Assembly: GCF_002127965.1 (NCBI RefSeq)
Contig: NZ_CP018787.1
Location: 1,736,001-1,800,000 of the forward strand
DNA: 64,000 bases
DNA from: Oxalobacter formigenes
Lineage (GTDB): Bacteria > Pseudomonadota > Gammaproteobacteria > Burkholderiales > Burkholderiaceae_D
Direction of reading: 5' to 3'
The number at the start of each line of letters is the position of its first letter. Positions within the stretch are counted from its first letter, which is position 1. The notes beneath the pieces were generated by a model that searched no databases, had not been told where the DNA came from, and saw only the letters and a list, made by a program, of their open reading frames with translations. Shown here piece by piece: positions 1 through 47,300 of this stretch. The position numbers were made by a program, and so were the translations under genes.

Positions 1-1348
1 CGAGGTTCTGGTACAGGTAATCCGTCACGTTTTGCAGGGTCTTTTCCGGGTCATTGGGGTCGATGATTTTTTCGGGGGTCATGGGTTTCATGGCGTCCAT
101 TTCCCGCTGGTATGTTTTCAGTGTGTCCTGCACGGCTCTCAGGGCTTTGGGGTCGCCCCCGGTCATGCCATAGACCATTTCCCCCATCAGGGAGGCGAAG
201 GAGTAGAAGGCGGTTTTGGCTTCCAGAGGCGCCATTTTCATGCCTTTTTCGAAGGAATAGGCTTGCCGGCTTCCGTGTTTGGGGTCGTAGGTGTATCCCT
301 GTGCTTCGTTGAATTCCTGTATGGCCCGGCCGACGGTTTCATTGTCCATGTTCTGGAAGATGGCCGGGATCAGTTTGCCGGTGGTCTGGTCGGGTTCGCT
401 AACGGGGCGGCTGCCGTCTTCGCCGTGGACGGGGTTTTTCGGGGCAAGCGCCTTGTTGACGTAGCCGGTGACCGCTCTCCCGGCCTGCCTCTCTGCTTCG
501 GCATAGCTTTCATCCCGGGCTCCCGCTACCCGGTTTCCGTCTTTTCCGTGGATGTCACTGTCCTTGCCCAGTCCCTTGTTGGCATAGCCGGTGACCTTGT
601 TTACGGCAAAGCGCAGGAGTTCTCTCATGCTCAAATCCTGCGGATCATAGACATGCGCTGTCCTTTCGAGAATGTTTCCGGTTTTCACGTCTTTGGCCGG
701 TTCATCCGCATATTGAATCGCCTTCTGTATTGACGGCACCCCATCGCGTTCGGGACGGTATTCAAGGGTGCGATAAGCGTTTGACGGATTGTCTTTATCA
801 TCCAGACGGAGTTCCAGTGTTTGGGCTCCTTCCTGCTGTTTTTGTCTGAGCTGGCTTTCCAGTTCGATCCATTGCCTGAAAACCGGGTCATGTCTGGCGT
901 TCAGGATGAAGCTGATATCTTTCTGATCCTGTGTCATCCCATTGACCTTGTTTTTCCAGCCATGGATGTAGTCATCTCTTTCCGGGCCGGTCAAGGGACG
1001 TCCCAGTGGGCTTTTGGGGTCGTTTCCTGCACTGAAACGATTCATGAGCATGTCGTTTCGTCTGCTGGCGTCCAGTCCCTTGTACGGGTCGTCGGGGTCG
1101 GTTTTGAAGACGGGGGCCGGTTTGGTGTTGTCGATGTCAACTGCCTGTGGAGGCGGTTTCTGGAGGTTTTTTTGCTGTTCGGCCTGCGCGGCCTGTTGTT
1201 CCCGCAATATCCTTGCCTGTTCCCGTTCCTGTTCGCGCCGCCGTCTCTCGGCTTCCCGTTCCAGTGCACGGTTTTGTTCTTCGGGGTCGTAGCTGCCGGA
1301 ATACATGTTTCCTATGGAGCTGAAGTAATCATCGTCTTCACCGCTCAT
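1..1348 (-). CDS. MSGEDDDYF-family protein, 3' end off the window (putative polymorphic-toxin carrier)
   Basis: Open on the minus strand from an ATG at 1348 (good AGGAG ribosome site just upstream) to the left edge without a stop, about 449 codons. I recognise no known family. It starts MSGEDDDYFSSIGNMYSGSY, almost identical to the start of the gene at 24319-25722. An E/R/Q-rich stretch (about residues 25-60, likely coiled coil) follows, then a shared block around YRTLEYRPERDGVPSIQKAI, then short repeats containing SYAEAERQAGRAVTGYVNKA. The last visible residues (around EKTLQNVTDYLYQN) align with the point in the paralogue just before its hydrophobic C-terminal tip, so the tip of this copy lies outside the window. 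No signal peptide is visible. It follows the MFS gene on the same strand but is separated from it by five tandem hairpins. The toxin-carrier idea is inference from the paralogous locus. Confidence 0.75.
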   Translation of the reverse strand, partial: MSGEDDDYFSSIGNMYSGSYDPEEQNRALEREAERRRREQEREQARILREQQAAQAEQQKNLQKPPPQAVDIDNTKPAPVFKTDPDDPYKGLDASRRNDMLMNRFSAGNDPKSPLGRPLTGPERDDYIHGWKNKVNGMTQDQKDISFILNARHDPVFRQWIELESQLRQKQQEGAQTLELRLDDKDNPSNAYRTLEYRPERDGVPSIQKAIQYADEPAKDVKTGNILERTAHVYDPQDLSMRELLRFAVNKVTGYANKGLGKDSDIHGKDGNRVAGARDESYAEAERQAGRAVTGYVNKALAPKNPVHGEDGSRPVSEPDQTTGKLIPAIFQNMDNETVGRAIQEFNEAQGYTYDPKHGSRQAYSFEKGMKMAPLEAKTAFYSFASLMGEMVYGMTGGDPKALRAVQDTLKTYQREMDAMKPMTPEKIIDPNDPEKTLQNVTDYLYQNL

Positions 1349-1365
1349 GTTTTTCTCCTGTACAT

Positions 1366-1531
1366 AAAAAAAAGCCTTCCGCTTCATGACATGAATGACG
1401 GAAAGCCTGAAAATAAAAAAGCCCTCCATCCGGAAGGCTTCTGAAAAAAGAAAACCTCCCGTCAGGAAGGCTTCGGTACAAAAAAGGTCTTTTCATTGGA
1501 AAGACCTGAAAACCGGGCGCATGTCGCCCGT
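1366..1531 (-). repeat. array of five tandem terminator-like hairpins in the leader of the 1348 gene
   Basis: Reading the minus strand towards the gene, five GC-rich stem-loops follow one another at about 30-nt spacing: 1514-1530, 1485-1507, 1455-1470, 1421-1438 and 1373-1408. Nearly all are followed by a run of five or more T in the sense direction, so each looks like an intrinsic terminator. The last ends about 18 nt before the start codon. The same arrangement precedes the paralogue at 25722. The first hairpins could terminate the MFS transcript, but five in series is far more than termination needs. Confidence 0.75.
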
Positions 1532-1588
1532 CTCTTTTACTTATACAGGAAAAACAATCTTCGGTCAGCTATGGCATTCGTTTTTCCA

Positions 1589-2782: not shown

Positions 2783-3254
2783 GATCGTAAAAAAAAGAAA
2801 AATAAGTTATCCAAAACCGGGAACGACCAGCGCGATGGAAGTGTTGTCGGTGCGCGTCCCAATTCTTCAAACAGCTTTTCTTTCTTCCCGTTTCCCTGCC
2901 GGTTCCATCCGGAAGAAGCCGTTATGCGGCCATTATAATTCAGCTTTCCGCCAAAAATCCAGACATCCCTCAAGGCAGACGGAAACCGGGAATCCTCACC
3001 TGCTCAAAACATTCACCCTTTGCTGATCAGGCACCATCGTCTGAAGAAACCCTGTTCGACAATCCATATCGATTCCTTCCCTTATCGACCAGACACACTG
3101 GCTGATTCCCTGAAACCGCAAACTGTTCCCTCTTTTTTAAAGATGAAAAAACCGCTGCCATGAAATGATGACAACGGATTTAAAAATCAGTCATATATTA
3201 AAATTAGTTAATATATCGTTTGACGTTTAACGTTTTTCGTTATATCATCAACAC
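2783..3254. other. divergent intergenic region, MFS / higBA
   Basis: This 470-nt spacer holds the divergent promoters of the MFS gene and the toxin-antitoxin pair. Its right end is very AT-rich. A TTGACG at 3220-3225 and TATATC at 3241-3246 could form a -35/-10 pair with a short 15-nt spacer, overlapped by repeated ACGTTT/AACGTT motifs that would suit an autorepressor operator for HigA. No gene or RNA was recognised here. The promoter call is weak. Confidence 0.4.
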
Positions 3255-3533
3255 ATGATTAAATCGTTCACATGTCCGGATACACAAGACCTGTTTGCCG
3301 GTAAAACCGTTCCCCGGTTTGTCAACATCCGGTCAGTAGCGGAACGCAAACTCCAGATGATTCACAGGGCTACGGGCATAAACGATTTACGAATTCCACC
3401 CAATAACCGCCTTGAAGCGTTAAAAGGCGATAGAAAAGGTCAATACAGCATAAGAATTAATGACCAGTGGCGCATTTGTTTCACGTTCGATAATGGACAG
3501 GCTTTTGATGTTTCGATTGTCGATTACCACTGA
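3255..3533 (+). CDS. higB: HigB-type toxin (RelE/ParE superfamily)
   Basis: 92 residues, the usual length for plasmid-maintenance HigB killers. The C-terminal half carries the family core pattern, NRLEALKGDRKGQYSIRIND followed by QWRICFTF and ending VSIVDYH. Known members are ribosome-dependent mRNA interferases that cut translated mRNA in the cytoplasm. The toxin gene comes before the antitoxin gene, the order typical of higBA, and the two are separated by only 11 nt, so they are co-transcribed. Expression is expected to be repressed by HigA bound to the AT-rich upstream region. The ORF is complete and looks functional. Confidence 0.92.
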   Translation: MIKSFTCPDTQDLFAGKTVPRFVNIRSVAERKLQMIHRATGINDLRIPPNNRLEALKGDRKGQYSIRINDQWRICFTFDNGQAFDVSIVDYH

Positions 3534-3544
3534 AAGGATTAAAT

Positions 3545-3844
3545 ATGGATAACATTATTAATGGCATGAGGCCAATACATCCGGGGGAAATTCTCAGAGA
3601 AGAATTTCTGTCCCCGATGAACTTGTCTTCCAATGCACTGGCCATTGAACTGCACGTCCCCGCGCCACGGATAAATGAAATTGTCCGTGAACGCAGAAGC
3701 ATCACGGCAGATACCGCTTTACGTCTTGCCCGTTATTTTGGAACAAGTGCTGAATTCTGGATGGGCTTGCAAGATGATTACGATCTGAAAACCTGCCAGA
3801 GAAAACTCGATGAAACGCTTGGCCGGATTATTCCGCGCCAATGA
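3545..3844 (+). CDS. higA: HigA-type antitoxin, XRE/HTH family
   Basis: 99 residues with a helix-turn-helix of the HigA kind: it begins MRPIHPGEILREEFLSPMNL within the first 30 residues, followed by SSNALAIELHVPAPRINEIV (recognition helix) and the conserved TADTALRLARYFGTSAEFWM. It neutralises HigB by direct binding and represses its own operon by binding operator DNA. It lies 11 nt after higB with an AAAGGATT ribosome site in the gap. The family normally ends soon after the helical bundle, as here, so the protein is full length. Confidence 0.93.
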   Translation: MDNIINGMRPIHPGEILREEFLSPMNLSSNALAIELHVPAPRINEIVRERRSITADTALRLARYFGTSAEFWMGLQDDYDLKTCQRKLDETLGRIIPRQ

Positions 3845-3941
3845 CAGCCTGATTTTATGAAAAACCCCGCCGGATGGTTTGTCCCAAAGACAGACACTCG
3901 TCAGTCGCTTATCCCCAGACATCAATAACACGGCAACAAAT

Positions 3942-8793: not shown

Positions 8794-9441
8794 GTGAGAC
8801 CTTTCCTATACTACGATGCACGCCTGAAAGGCGTCATCCTGACCGCAAATGGCGAACGTTTCGTCATCGAATACCTTGGCAAGGAACTCTTTCTTCCAGC
8901 CGATTCCGCCAATGCGGCCTACTATGACAAAATGCTGAAACAAGGCGAAAAAGAAGAAACGGGCCTGATCGGGCTCGTCTCACAGGTCAGAAAGAAAAAC
9001 AACGTCGGCCATTCCCGGGCGCGTGGCTTTTACCGCTTCGACGCCTATCCCGACCAGACGCTTCAACGTGCATTCGAACTCGACGATTTCGACTACTTCG
9101 GGCAAGACCACAACATGAACTCCATCGGATGGCGCAACGAAGCCAATCCCAACGGATTTCTGGCTGCACGCGGCATCATTCCCGGCAAGGAAGGCCGCTT
9201 CATCTCCGACAGTACCGAACCCTATACCGTCAACATCCCGTTCGACTTCGTCGAAATCGCCACCCGCCTGAAACAGGATCCCGTCGACATACTGAAAAAT
9301 TTCATAGCCGACGTCTGCCAGCTTCACTCAACAGACGAGCTGCCGCGGGCAGACGGCTTCAACAGCCGTGGGATGGAAGCGGAAAAGAAAGCCCGCGAAT
9401 ACCTGAAACAGGCCTACCGGCTGAAAAAAGACATCATCTGA
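8794..9441 (+). CDS. conserved-looking hypothetical protein, 215 aa
   Basis: I do not recognise a family. The reading frame starts at a GTG with no clear ribosome site and ends at 9441. The protein is soluble and charged, without a signal peptide or membrane segment. It opens MRPFLYYDARLKGVILTANG, has an aromatic/acidic central stretch (FELDDFDYFGQDHNMNSIGW), and ends in a helical K/E-rich tail. Codon use resembles its neighbours and the minus strand shows the usual shadow ORFs of a real gene. It stands alone between two OB-fold genes, with a spacer on each side. No function is proposed. Confidence 0.7.
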   Translation: MRPFLYYDARLKGVILTANGERFVIEYLGKELFLPADSANAAYYDKMLKQGEKEETGLIGLVSQVRKKNNVGHSRARGFYRFDAYPDQTLQRAFELDDFDYFGQDHNMNSIGWRNEANPNGFLAARGIIPGKEGRFISDSTEPYTVNIPFDFVEIATRLKQDPVDILKNFIADVCQLHSTDELPRADGFNSRGMEAEKKAREYLKQAYRLKKDII

Positions 9442-9687
9442 TTCAACAGAATGCCGGACAGTTCTCTGTCCGGCAAACCGGGATAATCCCTTCGCCAGGC
9501 CATTTCTTTTTGCCATCCATCCTGAAAACGAAAACCGTCACAGCTTCGTTCAACACCGCCTTTTTTTTACGGAAAACTTCCTTTTGCATCGATTCCGCCT
9601 GAACCAAAAAAAATTATCGGACGTCTCATGAGGATGACTTCCGTCATCGCATAAAAACGGCTGCCGTTTTAAACTGTCACAACCGTA

Positions 9688-9729
9688 ACGGATGAGTTAT
9701 ATTGTTCATCCGTAATTGTTCATCCGTAA
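9688..9729 (+). promoter_or_regulatory. repeat cluster upstream of the second OB-fold gene
   Basis: A 14-bp unit TTGTTCATCCGTAA is repeated exactly twice in tandem (9702-9715 and 9716-9729), and an inverted half ACGGATGA lies just before it (9688-9695), forming an ACGGATGA...TCATCCGT palindrome. It ends about 55 nt before the start codon, which suits an operator for a dimeric regulator. The bound factor is unknown. Confidence 0.45.
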
Positions 9730-9784
9730 AAAAACAGCGTCATTTGAATTTTCACTGAAACACCAACAGACAAAGGAGCTTCCC

Positions 9785-10165
9785 ATGATGTCTAAAAAAC
9801 TGCTCACCGGCCTTTTCGCTGCGGGCCTTTCCATCGGAATGCTGGCCGTATCGTCCACCGCAAGCGCCCAGTACATCGGTCCGACCCGAATTGCGCCGAC
9901 AACCGTCAACAAAGTCCTCAAAAGCCCTGTTGACGACCAGTACGTCCTGCTTTCCGGAAAAATCACGTCCCAGGTCAGCAAGGACAAATACACATTCACC
10001 GACAAGACCGGATCGATCGTCGTGGAAATCGACAACGAAGTCTTCGCCGGGCGTCAGGTCGGCCCTGATACACAAGTCGAAATCTGGGGCAAAGTCGACA
10101 AGGACATGTTCAAGGAACCGAAAATCGACGTCAAACGACTGGGCATTCCAAATCAAACAAAATAA
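9785..10165 (+). CDS. exported OB-fold protein, YgiW/YdeI (BOF) family (paralogue)
   Basis: 126 residues from the ATG at 9785, chosen because AAAGGAG lies directly upstream and because it begins a good signal peptide (MMSKKLLTGLFAAGLSIGML...SASA-QY). The mature domain (TVNKVLKSPVDDQYVLLSGK, YTFTDKTGSIVVEIDNE, TQVEIWGKVD) is clearly paralogous to the protein at 8126. It is periplasmic by prediction. The shared VDDQY and WGKVD blocks are conserved but the termini differ. The upstream repeat cluster at 9688-9729 suggests specific control. Confidence 0.92.
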   Translation: MMSKKLLTGLFAAGLSIGMLAVSSTASAQYIGPTRIAPTTVNKVLKSPVDDQYVLLSGKITSQVSKDKYTFTDKTGSIVVEIDNEVFAGRQVGPDTQVEIWGKVDKDMFKEPKIDVKRLGIPNQTK

Positions 10166-19084: not shown

Positions 19085-20148
19085 TTATAATTCCGCACAA
19101 ATTTTACTGATCACTTTATCTTCCATTCCGACAAAAAGCGGCAAACAGGCAATTCGGGAAGCAATATTTTCCGAAACAGGACAGTTTACTATTTTTCTGA
19201 GATAGGGAAGTCTATTCAAGCTAGGATAAAAATAACGTCGTGGAAATATATCTAACTTTTGCAAAAATTCAAATCTGGTTAAAAGCTCAGCTTCACTTTC
19301 AAACAGAACAGGATAATATGCATAATTATATTCAAGTCCACTTTTCTGTTTGGGTCGTTCATATTTATCTAAAATAAATGAGTCATAGATTTCAGAAATC
19401 CTCTTTCTTTCGTCGACTATTTGATTAATATAATTAAAATTGCATAACCCCATTGCCGCATTGAATTCATCTTGTTTTGCATTAATCCCGAGACAAAAAT
19501 AATCATCACTCCGATGACCAAATCTTTTGATTAACTCCAATCTGCCAGACAGACTTTTATTTTTTACTATTATTCCCCACCTTCAATCGTATGAAACAAT
19601 TTTGTTGCATGAAAAGAAAGTGTGGAAATATCACCATAAGAACAAAGTGCTTTTCCTTTGTATTTCGCTCCAAAGGCATGTGCGGCATCGTAAATAACTT
19701 TAAGTCCATGTTTTACCGCTATGGATTCGATTGCCTCGACATCACAAGCATATCCAAATACATGCACAGGCATAATTGCCTTTGTTTTTGATGTAATAGC
19801 CGCTTCAATTTTTGTGACGTCAATCGTGAAATTATCGGGTTCAATATCAACAAATACGGGAGTACAGCGTTCCCAAAGAATGGAAGATACCGTTGCAACA
19901 TAGCTGAAGGGTGTAGTAATAACTTCGCCCTCCGATATATTCAATGCTTTTAGTGCCAGCTGTAAGGCTATCGTTCCATTGGTGACATAATGAAAATTAT
20001 CAACCGAAAGATATTTTCGCATTTTCTCTTCCAGCTCCAATACATTCGGTCCCTGATTTGTCAGAATGCCTGTATCGAATATATCGGAAACCTTTTTCAG
20101 AAATTCGTCCTTGGGAGGCAAGAAAGGTTTCGTAACGTAAATACTCAT
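19085..20148 (-). pseudogene. DegT/DnrJ/EryC1 sugar aminotransferase, split by a one-base frameshift
   Basis: Two reading frames make one PLP enzyme of about 354 residues. Part one (20148-19570) has the N-terminus VTKPFLPPKDEF, VTNGTIALQLALKALNISEG, VFVDIEPDNFTID and the lysine loop DISTLSFHATKLFHTIEGG (the Lys after AT binds PLP). It then meets stop codons. Part two (19540-19085) continues RFGHRSDDYFCLGINAKQDE to the C-terminus. Restoring one base in the GGGGAA run near 19573-19578 would give a continuous GGAIIVKNKSLSGRLELIKR, exactly the family's expected sequence. The enzyme would aminate a keto-sugar nucleotide. Real inactivation or an assembly error are both possible. Confidence 0.8.
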
Positions 20149-21607: not shown

Positions 21608-21645
21608 GCTGACCCGTTTGCTTGCGGATTCTGATCGCCTCTTCA
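21608..21645 (-). pseudogene. 38-bp scar of a third cassette SLR gene
   Basis: This stretch matches 23112-23149, the 3' coding end of the SLR gene at 23059, at 37 of 38 positions. On the minus strand it encodes the same EEAIRIRKQTGQ segment. It stands alone just after the stop of the SLR gene at 21677, as if a third SLR copy once followed and was deleted. Confidence 0.7.
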
Positions 21646-21676
21646 TGAATGAAAAAGGCTGGTTCATCACCAACAA

Positions 21677-22552
21677 TCAGTCATCCAGCTTCACCCCGAA
21701 AAACCTCAGGCGGCGTCTGGCATCGGGATCGCCCTCTCCATTCTGCTTGCGGATTTCAATGGCTTTTTCCACCATTTCGCCTGCTTTTTTCCTGTCTTTT
21801 TTCTGGCCCAGCTGTTCGTTGGCATACACGCTGCCTAACGCATCGTAGGCATCGGCACTCCCGTTTTCCGCTGCCTTGTTGTACCAGTAGAGCGAACGCT
21901 CATCGTCGTTTTTGATGCCCAGGCCGTAACGGTAGGCTTCCGCCAACAGGAACTGTGCCCTGACGTTTCCCTTTTCGGCACCCATGATGTAATACTGGAC
22001 GGCATGGGTCTTGTCCTTTTTGACGCCAAGACCTTCCTCATACAGGATACCGAGCTCTGAAATGGCATGAACACTGCCATGTTCAACGGCACGCCGGTAC
22101 CATTGCATGGCCTGTTTGAAATCCTGTTTGACGCCTTTTCCGGTTACGGTCAGATAACCCATTTTGGATTCTGCATCGGGATATCCCTGTTCTGCAGCCT
22201 TGAGATACCATTTTATGGCTTCGTTGATATCTTTTTTAACACCAGATCCTGATTCAAAACTTAATCCAATATTGAAATCAGCAGCAGGAAATCCTTTTTC
22301 TGATGCTTTTCTATACCATTGATTAGCCAGTTTTGGATTTTGCCTAACACCTAATCCATTGTCATACATATAACCAATATGATTAAGTACTTCTGCATTT
22401 CTCTGAGCATCCGGTTTCAGGAAATAAGTCATCGCTTGCTCATATTTCGCTGACTCGAACAAACTCATCCCTGTTTTTGCATTATCTGCAAAAACACTGC
22501 TGCTTATACCTAAAAAAAAATAAAAAAAGAATATTTTTGAAAGAAATTTCAT
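21677..22552 (-). CDS. exported Sel1-repeat protein, candidate immunity partner (cassette 2)
   Basis: 291 residues from the ATG at 22552. That start is preferred over an upstream ATG (22585) because it aligns with the start of the paralogue at 23931 and lies 16 nt after the same hairpin in both. The signal peptide ends SSVFA-DNAKTGMSLFESAK. About six Sel1 repeats follow (for example GYMYDNGLGVRQNPKLANQWY, one repeat per 36 residues). The C-terminus RRRLRFFGVKLDD is shared with the paralogue (MRRLRLLGIDIE). Sel1 repeats are alpha-helical protein-binding solenoids. Location is predicted periplasmic. It directly follows the orphan tip gene at 22632-22976. The immunity role is inferred only from order and pairing. 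Confidence 0.85.
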   Translation of the reverse strand: MKFLSKIFFFYFFLGISSSVFADNAKTGMSLFESAKYEQAMTYFLKPDAQRNAEVLNHIGYMYDNGLGVRQNPKLANQWYRKASEKGFPAADFNIGLSFESGSGVKKDINEAIKWYLKAAEQGYPDAESKMGYLTVTGKGVKQDFKQAMQWYRRAVEHGSVHAISELGILYEEGLGVKKDKTHAVQYYIMGAEKGNVRAQFLLAEAYRYGLGIKNDDERSLYWYNKAAENGSADAYDALGSVYANEQLGQKKDRKKAGEMVEKAIEIRKQNGEGDPDARRRLRFFGVKLDD

Positions 22553-22568
22553 TTTGAAGAACAAATAT

Positions 22569-22602
22569 GGATAAGGCTGTTTCATTATCTCCAGCCTTAT
22601 CC
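22569..22602 (-). promoter_or_regulatory. conserved hairpin before the cassette-2 SLR start
   Basis: GGATAAGGCT (22569-22578) and AGCCTTATCC (22593-22602) form a perfect 10-bp stem with a 14-nt loop, ending 16 nt before the start codon. The same stem, loop length and spacing occur at 23948-23981 before the other cassette SLR gene. No purine-rich ribosome site lies between hairpin and start, so it may control initiation. Confidence 0.75.
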
Positions 22603-22631
22603 TTTGACGTCAAGTCAAAACAAAGAGTGTT

Positions 22632-22976
22632 TTAACGACGTTTTTTCTTCATTTCATCATTGTGATATTTATTAACAGCCATATCCTTGCTGACATCCCG
22701 AACCTTATGCACAGCGACACTGGAAACCATCGACGCTGCATAATCCATCGCTTCTTTGGGTCCCTTGAATTTGATCGCATCCCTGATTGGCCAGAGCATC
22801 CCGCTCAGCAGGCCAAGCGGTACCGCGTACATCACCGATTCTCCGACATGGCTTTCCCCCGTTTCCTTTCGAAAATCGGCATGAAGCTGTGCGGTCATGA
22901 CCGCGGTTGAAACACCTGTCAACTGGGCAATCGACTCCAGTTTTCCCAGAAAGAAATATGCCGGTACCTTGACAAG
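22632..22976 (-). CDS. orphan C-terminal tip module (cassette 2)
   Basis: The frame is open from 22976, right after a TGA, and reads VKVPAYFFLGKLESIAQLTG, then TAQLHADFRKETGES, the hydrophobic SVMYAVPLGLLSGMLWPI, and a lysine-rich end. It aligns along its whole length with the tip of the MSGEDDDYF protein (24015-24350: VKVPAYYIWGKLDTFAELFG, TAKLHADIRDSTGES, SVMYAIPLGLMSAFALPF). It lacks the N-terminal 440 residues and has no ATG; the only internal start is a TTG at 22922. Orphan tips followed by an immunity gene are a standard feature of polymorphic toxin loci, where they act as a reserve for recombination. Activity is unknown; the hydrophobic segment suggests membrane contact. Confidence 0.7.
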   Translation of the reverse strand, partial: LVKVPAYFFLGKLESIAQLTGVSTAVMTAQLHADFRKETGESHVGESVMYAVPLGLLSGMLWPIRDAIKFKGPKEAMDYAASMVSSVAVHKVRDVSKDMAVNKYHNDEMKKKRR

Positions 22977-22994
22977 TCATATCCAACAAAAAAT

Positions 22995-23018
22995 AAAAGG
23001 GCACAAACGTGCCCTTTT
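22995..23018. terminator. terminator between cassettes 1 and 2
   Basis: AAAAGGGCAC and GTGCCCTTTT form a stem with AAAC as loop. It separates the SLR gene at 23059 from the orphan tip module downstream on the minus strand and would work in both directions. Confidence 0.75.
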
Positions 23019-23058
23019 ATTTCCTGAAGATCATTTATGTAGTGATCTTGATGTTAGC

Positions 23059-23931
23059 TCACTCTATATCGATGCCCAAAAGCCGCAACCGCCTCATCGC
23101 AGCCGGATCTAGCTGACCCGTTTGCTTGCGGATTCTAATCGCCTCTTCAATATATTTTTCACCTTTTTCCCTGTCTTCCTTCTGGTTCAACAGGCCATGT
23201 ACATAAATACCCCCCAGTGCCTGCAAGGCATCGGCATTTCCCTGTTCCGCCGCTTTACGATACCAGTGCAGCGCCCGTTCAGGATCATCTTTGATGCCAC
23301 GACCATATTGGTAGGCATGACCTAAAAGATACTGCGCTTTGGCATTTCCTTTATCAGCTCCCATAATGTAATACTGGACAGCACGGTTCTTGTTTTTTTT
23401 GACGCCATACCCCTCCTCATACATAATTCCTATTTCTGAGAAAACATTAATATTGCCATGCTCAGCAGCTGACCGATACCACTTCATAGCTTCCACAAAA
23501 CTTTGTTTGGTTCCTTTTCCTGTCGCCGTCAGATAACCCATTTTCGCTTCAGCATTCGGATATTGTTGTTTTGCAGATTTACGAAACCATTCGATAGCCA
23601 TATTTATATCTTGAGGAACGCCATAACCTTTCTCATAGAATAGTCCGACATTAAACTGCGCAGCGGCCTCCCCCATTTCTCCTGCTTTTTTATACCACTG
23701 AAAACTGATTTGCCTGTTTTTTTCAACGCCGAGCCCGTAATCATACATATAGCCAATACGATTGATCACGGCCGGATTCTTCTGGGCATCCTCCTTCATG
23801 AAATACGTCATGGCCTGCTGGTATTTTCCAGCTTCAAACAGCCGCATGCCTTCTCTGGCGTTGTCGGCAAAAGCCGAAAAACTGAAGAGAAAGAGAGTGA
23901 ATATACAGAGGATTTTGAAAGATGGTTTCAT
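23059..23931 (-). CDS. exported Sel1-repeat protein, candidate immunity partner (cassette 1)
   Basis: 290 residues. Signal peptide MKPSFKILCIFTLFLFSFSAFA is followed by DNAREGMRLFEAGKYQQAMT and about six Sel1 repeats (for example NVGLFYEKGYGVPQDINMAI, YLLGHAYQYGRGIKDDPERA). It is a paralogue of the 21677 protein, similar throughout and collinear in repeat number, with differences spread over the repeat faces as expected for partners of divergent tips. It lies 83 nt after the tip module at 24015 with a conserved hairpin between them. It should be periplasmic. Confidence 0.87.
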   Translation of the reverse strand: MKPSFKILCIFTLFLFSFSAFADNAREGMRLFEAGKYQQAMTYFMKEDAQKNPAVINRIGYMYDYGLGVEKNRQISFQWYKKAGEMGEAAAQFNVGLFYEKGYGVPQDINMAIEWFRKSAKQQYPNAEAKMGYLTATGKGTKQSFVEAMKWYRSAAEHGNINVFSEIGIMYEEGYGVKKNKNRAVQYYIMGADKGNAKAQYLLGHAYQYGRGIKDDPERALHWYRKAAEQGNADALQALGGIYVHGLLNQKEDREKGEKYIEEAIRIRKQTGQLDPAAMRRLRLLGIDIE

Positions 23932-23947
23932 TTGATATGACAGGTAT

Positions 23948-23981
23948 GGATAAGGCTAATTTATTATGAACAGCCTTATCC
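23948..23981 (-). promoter_or_regulatory. conserved hairpin before the cassette-1 SLR start
   Basis: GGATAAGGCT (23948-23957) and AGCCTTATCC (23972-23981): same 10-bp stem, 14-nt loop and 16-nt distance to the start codon as at 22569-22602, but a different loop sequence. The stem is thus conserved while the loop is not, which points to RNA structure rather than a protein-coding constraint. Confidence 0.75.
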
Positions 23982-24014
23982 AACTGGGTCAAGAAAAAGA
24001 ATATGTATATTTAA

Positions 24015-24350
24015 TTATTCTTTACCTCGTTCCTGCTCTGTATTTGTCAACTTATTCACAACCATTCTTTCCCCCACATTCTGCCCCTTGCGAATTCCGG
24101 CTGTTGCCGCCATCGTCATGACGTAATCCTTCGCTTCTTTCGCACTTTTGAACGACATGTTCAGCTTGAAAGGCAAGGCAAACGCACTCATCAAACCCAG
24201 CGGAATGGCATACATGACGGATTGCTGTATTTTGCTTTCGCCGGTTGAATCCCTGATATCGGCATGTAGCTTTGCCGTAAACGCTGCTGTTGACATACCG
24301 AATAATTCGGCGAAGGTATCAAGCTTGCCCCAAATGTAATAAGCCGGCAC
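24015..24350 (-). CDS. C-terminal tip of the MSGEDDDYF protein, in a shifted frame (cassette 1)
   Basis: 111 residues if it starts at the GTG at 24350, but the frame is open further upstream and joins the end of the 24319-25722 ORF after a one-base shift (…QETG then NQIVKVPAYYIWGKL). The tip has VKVPAYYIWGKLDTFAELFG, TAKLHADIRDSTGES, a hydrophobic SVMYAIPLGLMSAFALPFKL, then FKSAKEAKDYV and a charged end. It overlaps the upstream stop by 32 nt, so coupled translation from the GTG is also possible. It is about half identical to the orphan tip at 22632. No catalytic motif was recognised; membrane disruption is a guess from the hydrophobic segment. Confidence 0.7.
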   Translation of the reverse strand: MPAYYIWGKLDTFAELFGMSTAAFTAKLHADIRDSTGESKIQQSVMYAIPLGLMSAFALPFKLNMSFKSAKEAKDYVMTMAATAGIRKGQNVGERMVVNKLTNTEQERGKE

Positions 24351-25722
24351 TTTGACAATCTGGTTTCCCAGTTTCCTGATACATATATCGGGTCACGTTT
24401 TGCATGGTCGCCTCAGGATTTCCCTCGACATAGATCTTGTCCACTGTCATGGGATCGAGCTTTTTCATTTCAGCCTGATGGGCATCGAGCAGAGCCTGCG
24501 TCTTCCGGATCGATGTCGGATCACCCCCAGTAATGCTGTGCACAACCTCCCCGAGAACGACAGCACCGGAAAGAAACATGATCTGCGTATCTTCGACAGC
24601 CTGTTTTGCTCCGTCCGTGACCATTTTCCACGGTATTTTCCGGCTTTCTTCCGTATTCCAGTTGCTCCAGTAACTCATGTTCGGGTGCCCCACCACCTCC
24701 CGCCCCTTTCCGGTGACGGTACTGTTCATCCCCATGTTTTCAGAGACGCTCCCTATGGCATTGCCATAGCTTTCGTCAGGGTGTCCGACAATACGGTTTT
24801 TATCTTCTCCCTGAATTTTGCTGTCACTGCCCATCGCCTTGTTGACGTACCCGGTGACCGCTTTCCCGGCCTGTCTTTCCGCTTCGGCATAGCTCGAATC
24901 CGGATGCCCTGCCGGATTCTTTTTCCACGATTCATTTCCTTCCATCGGGGCGATGGCGTTATCGTTCAGGTAGTCGTATGCGCGGCCTATGCTTTGATCC
25001 TGCGGAATATTCACACTCATGATCTGCGAAAGGAAATTGTCATCCACCTTCACGACCTTCACCGGTTCATCCGCATATTGAATCGCCTTCTGTATTGACG
25101 GAACCCCGTCGCGTTCGGGACGGTATTCAAGGGTGCGATAGCCGGTTGTCTGAGGATTTTTGTCACCCAGCCGGAGTTCAAGCGTTTGGGCCTTCGGTTG
25201 GGGAAGCCATTCCTGATATTGTCGTCTGGCCTGTTCGACCTGTTTTTTGACGTTGGGGTCGTATTTCATACTCTGACGTAACAGGATATAACGCATGTCT
25301 TCATTAGAATTGGTGACCCGGTTTTTCCACACATCGATGTATTCGTTTTGTCTGTCCCGTGACATTTCCCCGCCCAGATAATCCGTCGGTTTGCGATTAC
25401 CGTTATCGTATTTGTGTAACAGGATGTCGGTTCGTTTCTCATCCGGTATGCCATCAAGTGGATCGTCGGGGTTGGTTTTCGGAAGAGGTTTCGGTTCGTT
25501 TTCCGTCAATACACCGGGTTTGGGGGCGGTTTGCTGAAGGGATTTCTGGAGTTCGGCTTGCGCGGCCTGTTGTTCCCGCAAGAGTCTGGCCTGTTCCCGT
25601 TCCTGTTCGCGTCGTTTTTTTTCTGCTTCTCTTTCCGCTGCCCGGTTTTGTTCTTCGGGGTCGTAGCTGCCGGAATACATGTTTCCTATGGAACTGAAGT
25701 AATCATCGTCTTCACCGCTCAT
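24319..25722 (-). CDS. MSGEDDDYF-family protein (putative polymorphic-toxin carrier), tip frameshifted
   Basis: 467 residues as it stands, of which the last 16 or so (KPDCQSAGLLHLGQA) are out-of-frame read-through of the tip. It starts after AGGAGAAAAAC with MSGEDDDYFSSIGNMYSGSY; a charged E/K/R/Q segment (about 25-60) follows, then the block YRTLEYRPERDGVPSIQKAI shared with the 1348 copy. A region of imperfect repeats comes next, each with GHPD.SY and sometimes AEAERQAGKAVTGYVNKAMG, then a helical region ending MQNVTRYMYQETG. One extra base in the GGGAAA run near 24368-24375 breaks the join to the tip. No signal peptide is seen, so delivery by a dedicated secretion machine or phage-like particle would be needed; none is encoded nearby. 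Confidence 0.72.
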   Translation of the reverse strand: MSGEDDDYFSSIGNMYSGSYDPEEQNRAAEREAEKKRREQEREQARLLREQQAAQAELQKSLQQTAPKPGVLTENEPKPLPKTNPDDPLDGIPDEKRTDILLHKYDNGNRKPTDYLGGEMSRDRQNEYIDVWKNRVTNSNEDMRYILLRQSMKYDPNVKKQVEQARRQYQEWLPQPKAQTLELRLGDKNPQTTGYRTLEYRPERDGVPSIQKAIQYADEPVKVVKVDDNFLSQIMSVNIPQDQSIGRAYDYLNDNAIAPMEGNESWKKNPAGHPDSSYAEAERQAGKAVTGYVNKAMGSDSKIQGEDKNRIVGHPDESYGNAIGSVSENMGMNSTVTGKGREVVGHPNMSYWSNWNTEESRKIPWKMVTDGAKQAVEDTQIMFLSGAVVLGEVVHSITGGDPTSIRKTQALLDAHQAEMKKLDPMTVDKIYVEGNPEATMQNVTRYMYQETGKPDCQSAGLLHLGQA

Positions 25723-25740
25723 GTTTTTCTCCTGTTTATG

Positions 25741-25910
25741 AAAAAAGCTTTCCGGTTCATGAGGTGATGGCGGAAAGCTTTAAAAATAAAAAAACCTCCA
25801 TTCGGAGGCATGAAATAAAAAAGCCTCCCATCAGGAAGGCTTCAGGTATAAAAAAGGCCTCTTCCGTCCGGAGAAGCCCTGACATATCAAAAACGGGCGC
25901 AATGCGCCCT
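25741..25910 (-). repeat. array of five tandem terminator-like hairpins in the leader of the 25722 gene
   Basis: Sense-direction order on the minus strand: 25895-25909 (GGGCGC/GCGCCC), 25856-25880, 25823-25840, 25795-25808 and 25746-25780. Most are followed by TTTTTT. The number, order and last-hairpin geometry match the array at 1366-1531 although loops and several stem bases differ. Here the region lies between divergent genes, so no upstream minus-strand transcript needs terminating. Confidence 0.78.
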
Positions 25911-26092
25911 ACCCCTTTCTTTTTACACGCCTTTTCCTCTTCTGTCAGCTATGCGCAACGCCGCATGAGGCATATTTCCCACTTCTCTGCACCACAAGCG
26001 CCATTTGCGTGCAAAGCCATCCGATATCGGACACTTCCTGTTATGATCCAGACAAGTTAATGACCTTTGACCCATAGCAAAATCGTAAAATC

Positions 26093-40585: not shown

Positions 40586-40784
40586 CTGATTTCCGCCAAC
40601 AGCCCCTGCAAAAGACGTTTTTCAAAAAACCTGTTCCATTTTTGCCGCACTTTCGGCTGAAAATTCCTGAAGTTTCCCGATTGAACTGAAAGTTACAACA
40701 AAACACTTCAAAACAGTTTTATTGCCTGATAGCATTATTCCATCCCGTCAATTTTCCGGTTCCTTATGGGAACCTTTCGCGCTC

Positions 40785-43700
40785 ATGAATTCTTTTCAAT
40801 GGCACATTGTCAAACTCAAACACCGCGCACTTCTGTCCAGCCTGATCGTCGCGGCGGCTTTCATTCCCTTTTCATCGACAACAGCAGGGACAGCAAACCC
40901 GCCCACCATTCAGAAAACTCCCGAACTTGCCCGTCAGGTCAATGAAACGCTTAACTTCGATCACAAAACAGAAGACATCCTGAAAACACTGACGGAATCA
41001 AAAAACCCGTCCGATAAAACCCTGATGGGAGCGTTTTACGGTTCCGGTGCAGGTGGAAAACAGGACTGGGGAAAAGCCCGGATGTGGTTTGAAAAAGCGG
41101 CCAGTGAAGGCGATGCGCACGCTGAATATTTTCTGGGTCTTCTTTACATGGGGGGTCTGGGCACCCCCAAAGATTATGACAAGGCGTTTCATTGGCTATT
41201 GTTGGCCGCCCGTAAGGACATTCCCGACGCACAGTACCAGTTGAGTTGGTTCTATGCCAACGGAAAAGGTACGAGCCAAAGTCTGCGTGAAACGGTTTAC
41301 TGGATACAAAAGGCAGCCCACAAGGGGCATGTAGTAGCCATGCGAAGCATGGGAATGCTCAGTTACTCGGGATTAGGCATGCCCGAAAACAAGGTCGACG
41401 CTTTCAAATGGTTTGAAAAAGCGGCGAGTGCAGGCGATGCCGAAGCCCAATATCACCTTGGCATGTCCTATATGGCAGGCAAGGGAACGGAAAAAGACGG
41501 AAAAAAGGGAGAAGAATGGCTTTATCGTGCCGCGCTGCAAAATCAGACGAAAGCCCAGGATTATCTTTCCGTCCTTTATGTGCAGCGATTGCTTGATAAA
41601 AAAAACAGGCCGGGCGAAATCGAACAGGCAAGACAGTGGCTGGAAAACGCCGCCCGACGAAACGATAAAAATGCGATATACATGCTGAACGTCATTGAGC
41701 AGTATTCTCGCAAAACATCGAAAAATCAGGCCGAAACCCTCGACACCCTTCGTCGTCGCGCCGAACAGGGCAATGCCGATTCCCAATTCATGCTGGGAGA
41801 GGCCCTGCTTGCCGGAACGGGAATGAAGAAAAATCCGGAAGAAGCTGTCCGCTGGTTTGAAAAAGCGGCAAAACAGGGCAACATTGATGCACAGTCCGCC
41901 CTGGGATATATGCATTATTTCGGCGTCCATGTCCCTGTCGATTACGCAAAAGCCATTCCCCTGTTAAAACAGGGTGCCGATAAGGGGAACAGCCAGGCAC
42001 AAACCGCTATGGGATTCGCCTATGCCAGTGGAACAGGAATTGCCAAAAACGAGCAAAAAGCATTTGAACTGTTTGAAAAAGCGGCCCGGAACAATGTCCG
42101 AAGTGCCCAGTTTTACCTCGGTGAAATGCTTGAAAATGGCATTGGAACCCAACGAAACGTCCCAGAGGGATTGGCATGGATCGAAAAATCGGCGAAGGCA
42201 GGATACGACCAGGCCCAGTTTACGATGGGAATAAACGCTCTCCGTGGCAAGGACAAGATGCAAAATATTGACGAAGCGCGCAAATGGATGCGTCTGGCCG
42301 CCAAACAGAATCATGCAGAAGCCCAGTACATGCTCGGCATGTCATATTTTCTGGGAGAACTGACACCGGAAAATCAAAAGGAAGGTATTTTCTGGTGGGA
42401 CAAGGCCGCCGCCCAAAATCACGTCGAAGCCCGGCTCATGCTGTTCAAGTATCACTGCGATCCCAAAATGCATTATGCGGATCGTAAACGATGTTCCTCG
42501 ATCTCTGAACAAATGCACGATATCCGTGACCCTGACGCGCTTTATTCCCTTGGAGAATTATTTTTTTTCGGTAATGACAACCATAAAAAAAACGTCCCGA
42601 AAGCTGTCGATTTTTTCAGCAAGGCGGCTGATCTGAACCATACAGAAAGCCAGTACATGCTGGGGCTGATTCTCTATTCCAAAACGGATGTCGGACAAAA
42701 CAAAAAACAAGCCTGCCAGTGGTTTGAAAAAGCGGCAAGTCACAATCACCCGGAAAGCCAATATATGCTCGGAATCTGTGTTCTCGAGGGGAACCACACT
42801 TCCGCCGACAAAAAAAAGGCGCTTGAACTGATCAGACTGGCAGCCGACAAAAACGTCAGCATCGCCCAGAACAAAATGGGGTATCTGTATGAAACAGGCC
42901 ATATCGTTCCGAAAGACATGAAAAAAGCCATCGAATGGTACACACTTGCCGAACAGAATGGATTTACGGATGCGGCTTACCATCTGGCCCTGTTGTACCT
43001 TGCCAGTTCCCCACCCCTGCAAAACGATCCGCTGGCTCTGCGTTATCTTGAAAAAGCGGCTAGCGCAAACAATACAAATGCTCTTTATAAACTGGGAACG
43101 TTTTATTTCCACGGTCAATACTCGGCCACAAAAGATCGGAAAAAAGCGGCGGAGTATTTCCGCCGTGCCGCCAAACTCGGCCATAAAAACAGCCAAATAG
43201 CCTATGCCGACATCCTCCAAAAAGGTAAGGGAGTTGAAAAAAACGAAAAACTGGCTTGCGAAATCTATGAAAAAACAGCCAAAGAAGGTAGCCCTTACGG
43301 ACAATTCCGCTCAGGACTGTGCTATCAGACAGGTCTTGGAAATAGACCCAAAAATCCTGCCAAAGCGGTCAGTCTTTTTGAACAGGCAGCCAGACAAAAC
43401 CTGCCGGATGGCCAGATTGCCCTGGCATACTGTTATGAAACCGGACAGGGCGTTGCCCAAAATCTTGCGCTGGCGTTCAAATGGTACAAAATGGCAGCTG
43501 AAAAGGGAGATGTCGGCAGCATGATCACAACCGGAAAGATGCTGGACAAGGGAGAAGGAACAGCACGCGACAGCAAACAGGCTTTTTACTGGTTTTCAAA
43601 AGCGGCTGAGAAAGGATCACCCGAAGCAGAAGTTCAGTTGGGCCAACTGTATTATGCCGGACGTGGCATTTCCGCTGACATGAAAAAAGCGGTTTCCCTC

Positions 43701-44330
43701 TTCGACCATTCGGCCAGACAAGGCAACGCTTTGGCTCAATACTGGATGGGTTATCTCTGTCTTCACGGAAAAGGGGTCGAAAAAAATGAGCCACTGGCTC
43801 GTGACTGGCTCGAAAAAGCCGCCGTCCAGAATCAGACAGGCGCCGCTTTTGAACTGGCAAAACAGTATTGGAATGGCAACGGCATCCCGTCCGATCCGGA
43901 ACAGGCTATTGTCTGGTTCACCAAAGCCGCACAAAATAACGATGTTCAGGCACAAAGAGCACTGGCGTTCATTTATAGCGTCCATGGCGCGAAAAAAGGG
44001 ATAAAGCCGGATGACCAAAAAGCCTTTTACTGGGCAAACAAAGCCGCCAGATATAACGATGATCCCTCGACCAGACTGTTGCTGGGAACGTTTTATATCT
44101 CGGGAAAAGGGACCGCTGTAGATGAAAAAAAAGGCCTTCTCCTTCTGAAAGAAGCCGCAGAGAAAAACTATCCCCAGGCAATGGCGATGCTGGGTGAGTT
44201 CTATCTTGAGAAAAAAGACAGGAAAGAAGCACAAATGTGGTTCAAGCGTGCTGCCGCCTCCGGTGATCAGAAGGTCATCGAAATAATGAAGAAAAAAGGC
44301 GTTTATCCGCAAAACCCCGTCCATCCCTGA
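40785..44330 (+). CDS. giant exported Sel1-repeat protein, about 1,181 aa
   Basis: Start placed at the ATG at 40785, which gives a normal signal sequence (KHRALLSSLIVAAAFIPFSS...AG); an upstream TTG at 40722 is less likely. After a short linker (KTPELARQVNETLNFDHKTE) come about 30 Sel1 repeats to the end, each near 36 residues (AEYFLGLLYMGGLGTPKDYD; SQFMLGEALLAGTGMKKNPE). The last residues are KGVYPQNPVHP. The result would be a very long right-handed alpha solenoid in the periplasm, suited to holding many partners. It is a tandem paralogue of the next gene with only a 28-nt gap, so the two form an operon. Many repeats share the exact DNA string TGGTTTGAAAAAGCGGC, a substrate for unequal recombination. 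Confidence 0.88.
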   Translation: MNSFQWHIVKLKHRALLSSLIVAAAFIPFSSTTAGTANPPTIQKTPELARQVNETLNFDHKTEDILKTLTESKNPSDKTLMGAFYGSGAGGKQDWGKARMWFEKAASEGDAHAEYFLGLLYMGGLGTPKDYDKAFHWLLLAARKDIPDAQYQLSWFYANGKGTSQSLRETVYWIQKAAHKGHVVAMRSMGMLSYSGLGMPENKVDAFKWFEKAASAGDAEAQYHLGMSYMAGKGTEKDGKKGEEWLYRAALQNQTKAQDYLSVLYVQRLLDKKNRPGEIEQARQWLENAARRNDKNAIYMLNVIEQYSRKTSKNQAETLDTLRRRAEQGNADSQFMLGEALLAGTGMKKNPEEAVRWFEKAAKQGNIDAQSALGYMHYFGVHVPVDYAKAIPLLKQGADKGNSQAQTAMGFAYASGTGIAKNEQKAFELFEKAARNNVRSAQFYLGEMLENGIGTQRNVPEGLAWIEKSAKAGYDQAQFTMGINALRGKDKMQNIDEARKWMRLAAKQNHAEAQYMLGMSYFLGELTPENQKEGIFWWDKAAAQNHVEARLMLFKYHCDPKMHYADRKRCSSISEQMHDIRDPDALYSLGELFFFGNDNHKKNVPKAVDFFSKAADLNHTESQYMLGLILYSKTDVGQNKKQACQWFEKAASHNHPESQYMLGICVLEGNHTSADKKKALELIRLAADKNVSIAQNKMGYLYETGHIVPKDMKKAIEWYTLAEQNGFTDAAYHLALLYLASSPPLQNDPLALRYLEKAASANNTNALYKLGTFYFHGQYSATKDRKKAAEYFRRAAKLGHKNSQIAYADILQKGKGVEKNEKLACEIYEKTAKEGSPYGQFRSGLCYQTGLGNRPKNPAKAVSLFEQAARQNLPDGQIALAYCYETGQGVAQNLALAFKWYKMAAEKGDVGSMITTGKMLDKGEGTARDSKQAFYWFSKAAEKGSPEAEVQLGQLYYAGRGISADMKKAVSLFDHSARQGNALAQYWMGYLCLHGKGVEKNEPLARDWLEKAAVQNQTGAAFELAKQYWNGNGIPSDPEQAIVWFTKAAQNNDVQAQRALAFIYSVHGAKKGIKPDDQKAFYWANKAARYNDDPSTRLLLGTFYISGKGTAVDEKKGLLLLKEAAEKNYPQAMAMLGEFYLEKKDRKEAQMWFKRAAASGDQKVIEIMKKKGVYPQNPVHP

Positions 44331-44358
44331 AAACTCGTTAACGGAAAACTTGACACCA

Positions 44359-47300
44359 ATGAACCCTTTGCCATCAGACAGCCATTTTTTCAAACGTTTT
44401 GTACGGGGATATATCCTGCCTTGCCTTTTCTTCCCCATCACGGTAGCCACAGCCTCTCCGGCTCAGCACCTTGTTTATCCGGAGATCATGGAAATGCCAC
44501 AGGAGATAGACCAAACCCTGCTGGTCGATCATGACAGTGAAAAAATACTGAACAAACTGGCGGACTCAAACGCCCCCGCCATGAAAACACTCATGGGAGC
44601 CTGGTACGCTATCGGAGCCGGAGGCAAAAGGGACTGGATCAAAGCCCGCATCTGGTTTGAAAAAGCCGCCACTGAAGGCGACACAAGAGCCGCATATCCC
44701 CTCGGTCTTTTATACTCGGCCGGTCTGGGCACCCCCATCGATTACGACAAGGCCTTTTACTGGCTGTCAATCGCGGCACGCCAGAATATTCCGGATGCCC
44801 AGTACCGGCTGGCAGGACTTTATCAGGAAGGAAAAGGAACCGCCAAAAGCGAACGTGAATTCGCTTACTGGGTAAAAAAAGCCGCTGGAAACGGACACAT
44901 TGACGCCCAGAGAGCCATGGGAATGATCCTTCATTATGGTCTCGGAGTTCACAAAAACCTTCCTGAATCGGTCAAATGGTTTGAAAAAGCAGCCAATGCC
45001 GGAAACGCAACCGCACAATATTATCTCGGCATGGATTATATGAATGGTAATGGCCTCGCCAAAAATGAAAGGGAAGGAGAAAAGTGGCTTTATCGCGCCG
45101 CCATGCAAGACCATCTTGAAGCTCAAACATATCTCGGCACCATTTATCTGAAACGCAAGCTTCAAAATGAAGGTCAGCCACCGGAAACCGCCCTTGCCAT
45201 CCAGTGGATGGAAAATGCCGCTACGCGAAATGACCCGTACGCTATCCGGCTTCTATCCATGGTGTACAGGCATATTCCCGAACTGCAAAACAACGCCAAA
45301 GGCATGCTTCATCTTCGCCGCAGTGCCGAGATGGGGAATGCATCAGCCCAATTCGATCTCGGAAGAACCCTGTTTCAGGATAAAAACTCACCTGCAAAAC
45401 GCAAGGAAGCTGTCGTCTGGCTTGAAAAAGCCGCGCAACAGGACGAACGTAGGGCACAGGCTTTTCTTGGTAACATGTATTACTATGGCGAGTTCGTTCC
45501 TGTCGATTATGTCAAGGCGCTCCCTCTTTTGATGAGGGCTGCCGACAAGGGAGACAGCTTTGCACAATACACGCTTGGTTTGGCTTATATCGATGGGAAT
45601 GGCATTGCCAAAGATGAACGAAAGGCTTTTTCATGGTTGGAAAAATCAGCCAGTCAAAACAGGGCAAGTGCCCAGTATTTTTTAGGACTTATGTACCTTG
45701 ATGGAACAGGGACACCTGTCAATGAGGAAAAAGGCATCCGTTTGCTCAAAGAATTAGCAAAGACAGGGTATGTCTATGCCCAATATAAGCTTGGTACCTA
45801 CGCCCATAGCGGGCTTCATATGGCCAAAGATCTGGCAGAAGCGAGAAAATGGTACCAGTTGGCGGCCAGTCAGGATCATATCAAGGCGAAATACTGGCTC
45901 GGCATGTCCCTCTTTCAGGGCCCGGACAGTGAACAGGACAGGAAAAAAGGCGTTTACTGGTTCACCGAAGCAGCAAAACAGGATGACCCGGATGCGCAGC
46001 TTGAACTGGGAAAATCCCTGCTCTACGGCGATGGTATCGACAAAAACGAAAAGCAGGCGTGCACGTGGTTCAAAAAAGCCGCCAATAACCAACAGCACAC
46101 CGGCCAGTATTACGCAGGAATGTGCCTTATGCGGGGCATCAATGGGCCGGTCGATATTCCGAAAGGAATGTCACTCATTGAAATGTCTGCGAATAATAAG
46201 GTCTCAATGGCCCAGTTCCAGCTTGGGAAACTGTATGAATATGGTTTGAAAGAGTTGCCGAAAGACATCTCGAAAGCCATTGGCTGGTACACACGTGCCG
46301 CAGAAAATGGACATGCAACTGCCCAATACCGGCTGGGAAAGCTTTATCTCAAAGCTGATACTCCACTCAAAAATATTCCGCTCGGCCTCGAATTCCTTGA
46401 AAAATCCGCTTCACAAAATATAACCAGTGCCATTTTTGATCTGGGTAACATTTACTATGACGGAAAAATTGTCAAACAGGATATGGCAAAAGCGTTGAAT
46501 TACTTTCAGAAGGGAACCGGACTGGGCCATCTCCCGAGCCAGAATTTTGTCGGATTCATGATCGAGAATGGAAGCGGAGTTAAAAAGGATAAAGAAAAAG
46601 CATGCAAAATCTATGATGAAACCGGTCGACGCGGAAGTGCATATGGACTTTACCGCTATGGCTTGTGCCAGCTTTCCGATCCCGATCCATCCCCGGAAAA
46701 CCAGAAAAAAGCGTTTATTCTTTTCGAACAGGCTGCCCGAAAAAATCTGGCAGACGCCCAATACTTTTTAGCCCTGTGTTACGAATATGGCAAAGGGACT
46801 CCCAAAAACCCTGGCGAAGCTATTGAATGGTACAGGCGTGCCTCGGAAAACGACAAACCGGAAGCACTGTACCAGTTGGGTATGCTTTATATCACCAGCC
46901 CGTCTCCTCGCCAAAACATACCGCTGGGTCTGGATTATCTGGAGAAAGCAGCCGCCCGGGATCTGTCGTCCGCATTCAACGAACTGGGCCGAATTTATTA
47001 TGACGGGAAAATCGTCAGGCAGGATCTCAAAAAATCCGTCTTCTGGTATCGCAAGGGAGCACAATCGGGAGATACAAGAAGCCAGAATGATCTGGCTTAT
47101 ATGATGGAATACGGTAAAGGTCTTGAAAAAGACGAAAAGGCGGCCTGCACGATGTATGAAAAAACGGCAGGGGAAAAAAACGCTTATGGCCAGTTCCGTC
47201 TGGGGCTCTGCTATCTGAATGGAAAAGGCGGTAAAGCGAAGGATCAACGGGAAGCAGTCCGGCTCTTCGAATCTGCCGCCGGACAAAATCTGGCGTCTGC

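Follow-up and report, generated by a model that had tools for sequence, protein, structure and literature searches.

In contact-dependent inhibition (CDI; CdiA/CdiB/CdiI) and in MafB-type toxins, a constant N-terminal part carries a variable C-terminal part, and a small partner gene lies downstream. Proteins with Sel1-like repeats (SLR proteins) have a place among such partners: Sel1E protects against VgrG4 in Klebsiella (PMC7108748), PA5086-5088 are given as immunity proteins for PldB in P. aeruginosa (PMC6099711), with PA5087 serving as SLR template in PMC7108748. In Neisseria phospholipase arrays, a gene for only the C-terminal part of an effector precedes a PA5087-like gene (PMC10210955), and effector–immunity arrays of V. 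cholerae have been explained by sequential displacement (PMC5361080). Here we describe a locus of Oxalobacter formigenes in which a large "carrier" gene, tip sequences homologous to its relatives' C-termini, and genes for exported SLR proteins lie in a row; it falls in a stretch of 64,000 nucleotides (NZ_CP018787.1, positions 1,736,001 to 1,800,000; the window). Judging from sequence, we give about an even chance (roughly 0.5) that carrier and SLR genes form an Oxalobacter-restricted, recombining family of effector–immunity-like character.

Unbroken carriers of 530-569 amino acids occur at five other places in the O. formigenes genome (labeled G000; 2,468,871 bases, one contig), and across unbroken members of the family the length is 530-608 amino acids. 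All share a layout of a charged N-terminus, central degenerate repeats, a C-terminal tip of about 200 residues, and a hypervariable tail of about 10-26 residues, with no signal peptide. The tips fall into diverged but homologous classes, about 40% alike; a third class (L026, 3535-3969) has 21% identity to the tip of carrier L009 and retains G, P, and PLG at the invariant positions. A carrier profile matched 2 of 294 genomes of the family, its own included, that is, 2 of 13 Oxalobacter genomes and none of the 281 others sampled; the two are O. formigenes and Oxalobacter paraformigenes (G011). The same profile found its own genome and no other in a phylum sample (1 of 398), and a sequence search of genome contigs returned only two O. 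paraformigenes loci. A tip profile run on a class sample matched 2 of 369 genomes, namely, its own and one at 16.9 bits (E 0.003), which we take as chance. The earlier note on this DNA had recognized no known family for the carrier, and this stands: there was no Pfam match above cut-off, none in NCBIfam to E 0.1, and no PDB sequence to E 10, with weak, sub-threshold matches in PHROGs and PADLOC (E 0.02-0.04). For the tip, no toxin family scored above cut-off and no PDB sequence matched.

As that note expected, a gene for a signal-peptide-bearing SLR protein stands directly downstream of every unbroken carrier that we read, seven of seven in two species (five in O. formigenes, two in O. paraformigenes). 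These partners form a distinct subfamily. In O. formigenes, eight SLR genes score at least 442.6 bits, and the next full-length SLR scores 244; seven of the eight lie directly behind a carrier or tip, and the eighth is in tandem behind another SLR gene at carrier L011. The two L011 proteins are PDB 6UR7 and, for the tandem copy, 6ORK, with 100% identity over 250 and 249 residues. Thus, the suggestion of one SLR gene per tip holds within the window and fails genome-wide, where a single carrier, L011, is followed by two. In O. paraformigenes, in a count that leaves out further incomplete copies, eight of nine SLR genes at or above 388 bits stand behind a carrier or tip. One paper reports 26 Sel1 proteins detected in O. 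formigenes (PMC4764995), and another gives 6ORK as an O. formigenes protein of unknown function (PMC10868440); among the matches listed, we found no literature linking 6UR7, 6ORK, or Oxalobacter Sel1 proteins to a carrier gene. Elsewhere in the window, two giant open reading frames (ORFs) of 1202 and 1286 amino acids with many Sel1-repeat matches lie side by side (40722-44330 and 44350-48210, plus strand).

The carriers are mosaics. In a region-by-region comparison of eight of them, from which the window copy was omitted for the last region, the N-terminal, middle, and tip blocks reassort between loci. Carriers A09 and B10 are 93, 79, and 90% identical in their N-terminal and two middle blocks (mid1 and mid2) and 37-43% identical in their tips, so that common N-terminal blocks with swapped tips, as had been proposed, do occur; B10 and B13 have tips that are 98-100% identical and one middle block that is only 56% identical. 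The junction between carrier and partner was compared along the DNA in 60-base steps for four pairs of paralogues chosen for near-identical tips. The 3′ body of the carrier was 90-100% identical per step, save for one step of 73% (p23c/p27c). Identity fell within the last 10-26 codons of the carrier, a border set by eye, and then held at roughly 46-83% across the intergenic DNA and the N-terminal half of the SLR gene; beyond this it returned to about 85-100% in three of the four pairs and remained low to the SLR end in B10/B13. Synonymous divergence (dS) ranged from 0 to 0.40 for the carrier body and, for the SLR N-half, from 1.39 up to saturation. Given these steps in identity and this contrast in dS, the junction blocks appear to be old and diverged, set in more recently homogenized surroundings. 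Nonsynonymous divergence (dN) in the N-half was 0.27-0.41 against a dS of 1.39 to saturated, indicating purifying selection. Variability by position along the SLR proteins followed no clear pattern.

Mosaic structure would also fit gene conversion from donor copies, and here a different function has to be considered. Secreted SLR proteins might act on the host gut, with the carrier co-secreted and with conversion, orphan tips serving as donors, providing antigenic or functional variation. A 2023 paper, by its title, reportedly names Sel1-like proteins as the major O. formigenes secretagogues, the chief stimulators of oxalate transport in human gut cells, and two partners here are identical to solved Sel1 proteins of O. 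formigenes type. The active Sel1 proteins may be other ones than these partners, however, and a role at the host would by itself leave unexplained the pairing of carrier and SLR genes, the co-variation of tip and SLR described below, and the intact SLR genes behind a broken carrier. We consider this explanation unlikely, if a serious rival and the least improbable of the three alternatives.

Tip and partner change together to some extent. Across 13 tip–SLR pairs, with controls within species and within tip class, identity of the tip core correlated with that of the SLR middle (r = 0.63) and C-terminal part (r = 0.74); p was 0.0002 within species and 0.005 and 0.002, respectively, within tip class. 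Because these parts co-vary with the tip more than does the SLR N-half, which lies nearer to it, the pattern is not what plain linkage would predict.

The window itself holds what displaced carriers leave behind, a tip remnant next to intact SLR genes (Table 1). A large protein beginning MSGEDDDYF and bearing its own C-terminal tip had been described; this needs correction. The ORF does not include the tip: it ends in residues read out of frame, and the tip sequence resumes in a different frame, which is why we regard the carrier as broken. The rest of the proposed order (SLR gene, a hairpin like a terminator, orphan tip, second SLR gene, 38-bp scar) is all present on the minus strand, as is a second carrier starting at 1348, whose gene is whole in the genome as L013. 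Orphan tips paired with SLR genes, and relics, are thus real features of the family, as the orphan tip with SLR2 and the 38-bp relic illustrate. The orphan tip core is 99% identical to the tip core of carrier L009, and the middle and C-terminal parts of SLR2 are 95-97% identical to the SLR of that carrier. Both window SLR proteins match the Sel1 repeat family PF08238 well above the Pfam cut-off of 30.7 (SLR1, 173.1 bits, E 4.5e-52; SLR2, 172.1 bits, E 9.1e-52), and both have a signal peptide as judged by eye. A further tip relic lies downstream of the L013 carrier and SLR genes (L013, 9440-9667).

The constant pairing of carrier and SLR genes could also reflect export or folding: the SLR protein would assist the carrier, as a chaperone or adaptor encountered in the periplasm on the way out by, for example, type I secretion, with the tail as recognition signal. 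The variable tails are hydrophilic and mostly positively charged (net +1 to +4 in seven of nine proteins, 0 and -1 in the others), and a type I HlyD-like adaptor scores above cut-off in O. formigenes, beside an ABC-transporter-like gene; we take this pair to be LapBC-like. The adaptor, however, also scores above cut-off in G001, G006, and G007, genomes without a carrier match, and one would not expect a dedicated chaperone to persist after its carrier has broken or to be present in surplus (O. formigenes has eight SLR genes and five unbroken carriers). An export pair therefore seems to us distinctly improbable.

Most carriers have a leader of their own, missed by the earlier note: a private promoter and then hairpins resembling terminators. 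The promoter-like pattern, AGCTGAC[A/C]GAAG, 12-22 bases, then TATAA, has nine exact matches in O. formigenes and O. paraformigenes, all 88-192 bases upstream of a carrier start; there were none in a reversed control and none in five other Oxalobacter genomes. Exceptions are a variant at L027, the decayed copy of the window carrier starting at 25722, and L023, where none is visible. With its frame broken and its promoter motif lacking the TATAA box, the window locus is therefore best described as a carrier in decay that is followed by two SLR genes, both intact. Between promoter motif and start codon, hairpins followed by T-runs lie on the carrier strand. Strict hairpins were counted in 260 bases per leader, with 200 shuffles of each and 64 control upstream regions. 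The six O. formigenes leaders have two to four, a count reached by none of 200 shuffles for four leaders and by 2 of 200 for two; one strict hairpin each in A09 and B11 sits upstream of the promoter motif. Among the control regions, 51 had no hairpin, 12 had one, and 1 had two. Four O. paraformigenes leaders have one or two strict hairpins; p24 and p26 are not above their shuffles, and p23c lacks the promoter motif. By eye, several leaders have one or two hairpins beyond the strict count. We infer that the leader is an attenuator array. A narrow literature search found no paper on tandem terminators with such a leader and antitermination, and three Rfam matches near the region, all below gathering scores, are taken as chance.

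Table 1. Carriers, tips, SLR genes, and leaders in the window
Feature	Position	Strand	Basis or remark
Carrier ORF (MSGEDDDYF..., 467 aa), frame-broken near 3′ end	24319..25722	-	ORF calls; relatives elsewhere unbroken
Tip 1, separate piece in a frame other than the carrier's, open frame 111 aa	24015..24350	-	
SLR1, exported Sel1-repeat protein, 290 aa, intact	23059..23931	-	ORF and Pfam
Perfect hairpin, terminator-like, in the gap between SLR1 and orphan tip	about 22995..23018		Read from sequence; unlisted by consensus terminator scan
Orphan tip remnant	22632..22976	-	ORF 22632-22922 with TTG start; homology 22635-22976
SLR2, exported Sel1-repeat protein, 302 aa, intact	21677..22585	-	ORF and Pfam
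38-bp relic, 3′ end of a third SLR gene	21608..21645	-	97% identical to 23112-23149 within SLR1
Leader of window carrier, tandem terminator-like hairpins on carrier strand	25723..25909	-	Strict hairpins: 25895-25909, 25820-25843, 25794-25809
Decayed promoter motif of window carrier	25938..25950	-	One mismatch, no TATAA box
Second carrier (L013)	1..1348	-	C-terminus past window edge
Leader of second carrier (L013)	1349..1570	-	Intact promoter motif 1541-1570; three strict hairpins

Relics and broken copies, and one O. paraformigenes locus that sits between phage-like genes, might instead point to a repeat family that recombination or a phage has scattered and that is now decaying and without function. 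Against this, five carriers and eight SLR genes are intact, the SLR N-halves are under purifying selection, the leader motif is retained in two species, and no phage or plasmid record matches; we find it the least probable of the explanations. Cargo of a phage or plasmid is likewise not supported, as one carrier had no match among phage or plasmid records, viral contigs gave none, and one tip had none among plasmids.

Architecture, recombination, and retention of SLR genes favor an effector–immunity-like family over a host-interaction family, an export pair, or a functionless repeat. We lean to it because of the common N-terminal blocks with swapped tips, the SLR pairing, the tip–SLR co-variation, and the diverged junction block; because the SLR genes remain intact where the carrier is broken and a neighboring tip is a remnant, much as V. 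cholerae arrays retain immunity genes; and because there is a precedent for Sel1-repeat immunity and the carriers have a private leader.

Several observations weigh against this assignment. The tip core correlated weakly with the SLR N-half (r = 0.23; p = 0.04 in the unrestricted test, 0.02 within species, and 0.64 within tip class), and class II tips showed no co-variation (n = 5). When near-identical tips were thinned, r for the middle and C-terminal parts was 0.27-0.47 with B13 kept and 0.53-0.74 without it. B10 and B13, whose tips are nearly the same, have SLR partners that are 52% identical, counter to strict cognate pairing. The idea that swapped tips come with matched SLR partners is in keeping with the overall co-variation of the middle and C-terminal parts and at odds with class II and with B10/B13. 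The ninth SLR locus of O. paraformigenes, L051, where the sequence is incomplete, has SLR genes without a recognizable carrier. Two AlphaFold models have a mean predicted local distance difference test (pLDDT) of 34.0 and 35.3, too poor for a fold search. Nor did markers of delivery appear. With TssK (PF05936) as the sole marker tested for a type VI secretion system (T6SS) and VirB4 (PF03135) as the sole one for a type IV secretion system (T4SS), neither O. formigenes nor O. paraformigenes had a match, and each marker was found in 1 of 13 genomes of the genus. The secretin and contractile sheath families, one marker each, had no match in the O. formigenes genome.

With no match to TssK or VirB4, a T6SS or T4SS effector is not supported; nor are contractile delivery in O. 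formigenes and secretin-based export, as sheath and secretin families were without a match. The sheath family has one match above cut-off in O. paraformigenes. No CdiB-type transporter was seen by eye beside the carriers read, and no dedicated family search was made for one.

We suggest that the carrier, if an effector, would after its release serve as a weapon, or else as a contact signal, that its tip would act on a sister cell, in that cell's periplasm or envelope, and that the periplasmic SLR protein would bind the tip as cognate immunity. The middle and C-terminal half of the SLR protein might recognize the tip core, and the N-half the exchangeable tail. SLR genes could be kept after carrier decay because they are still protective, and the terminator array may all but shut off carrier expression except when RNA polymerase runs past it. 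One can envision a two-lock effector–immunity system without a known delivery machine: a helical tip core read by the Sel1 middle and C-half, a swapped tail of 10-26 residues read by the N-half, kin specificity changed via one junction-spanning DNA block, a promoter and tandem attenuators holding the effector gene off, and secretagogue Sel1 proteins that were antidotes in origin. Taken as a whole, this two-lock picture is speculative and doubtful. The low-confidence models at most hint that tips are helical. The earlier proposal that tips act at the membrane was not borne out: the 19-residue hydropathy maximum was at most 1.53 in eight of nine proteins examined, which makes it a guess, and a strong hydrophobic helix (2.27) was present only in the class III tip.

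As to the surroundings of these loci, the L027 array of O. paraformigenes lies between an LPD38/phage-like gene group (82-2230) and a major head protein gene (9042-10091). Carriers are also found near an AAA_21 ATPase gene with a 200-residue neighbor and near a HipA-like gene (L009, 8083-10012; L010, 12271-13539). Within the window, a DegT-type aminotransferase gene (19085-20148, minus strand) encodes an N-terminal half that ends early, and the next ORF looks like the other half, so that the gene is seemingly split; a small gene pair at 3250-3850 (plus strand) presumably resembles HigBA toxin-antitoxin genes.

Placing Sel1 proteins of solved structure but unassigned function next to a carrier family that recombines and had not been described gives them a role that can be tested, in a gut commensal of medical interest. 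Should the SLR proteins confer immunity, any influence that they have on oxalate transport in the gut would be secondary, and carriers could decide which Oxalobacter strains coexist, which bears on probiotic use. A block exchanged across a gene junction and a tandem-terminator leader would each be unusual. Among the matches listed, no literature on Oxalobacter polymorphic toxins or Sel1 proteins describes the carrier–SLR system.

Compared with CDI and MafB, the Oxalobacter family shares the constant N-terminal part, the variable C-terminal part, and the downstream partner gene; it differs in that the carrier, 530-608 amino acids long, has no export signal or exported two-partner protein and no transporter gene was seen adjacent to it. 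Like PldB/PA5086-5088, VgrG4/Sel1E, and the Neisseria arrays, it has a Sel1 or PA5087-like gene just downstream of the effector, here a putative one, and as in Neisseria a partial C-terminal copy has another partner gene next to it. Unlike the T6SS systems, O. formigenes and O. paraformigenes have no match to the T6SS marker, and the carrier family has no VgrG or phospholipase match and is unrelated to theirs by sequence. The V. cholerae T6SS and Rhs arrays likewise keep, after a more recently acquired module, immunity-like genes and the 3′ remnants of effectors; in Oxalobacter, by contrast, the tips belong to homologous classes that are about 40% alike, and the tail and SLR N-half have been exchanged alone in three of four pairs.

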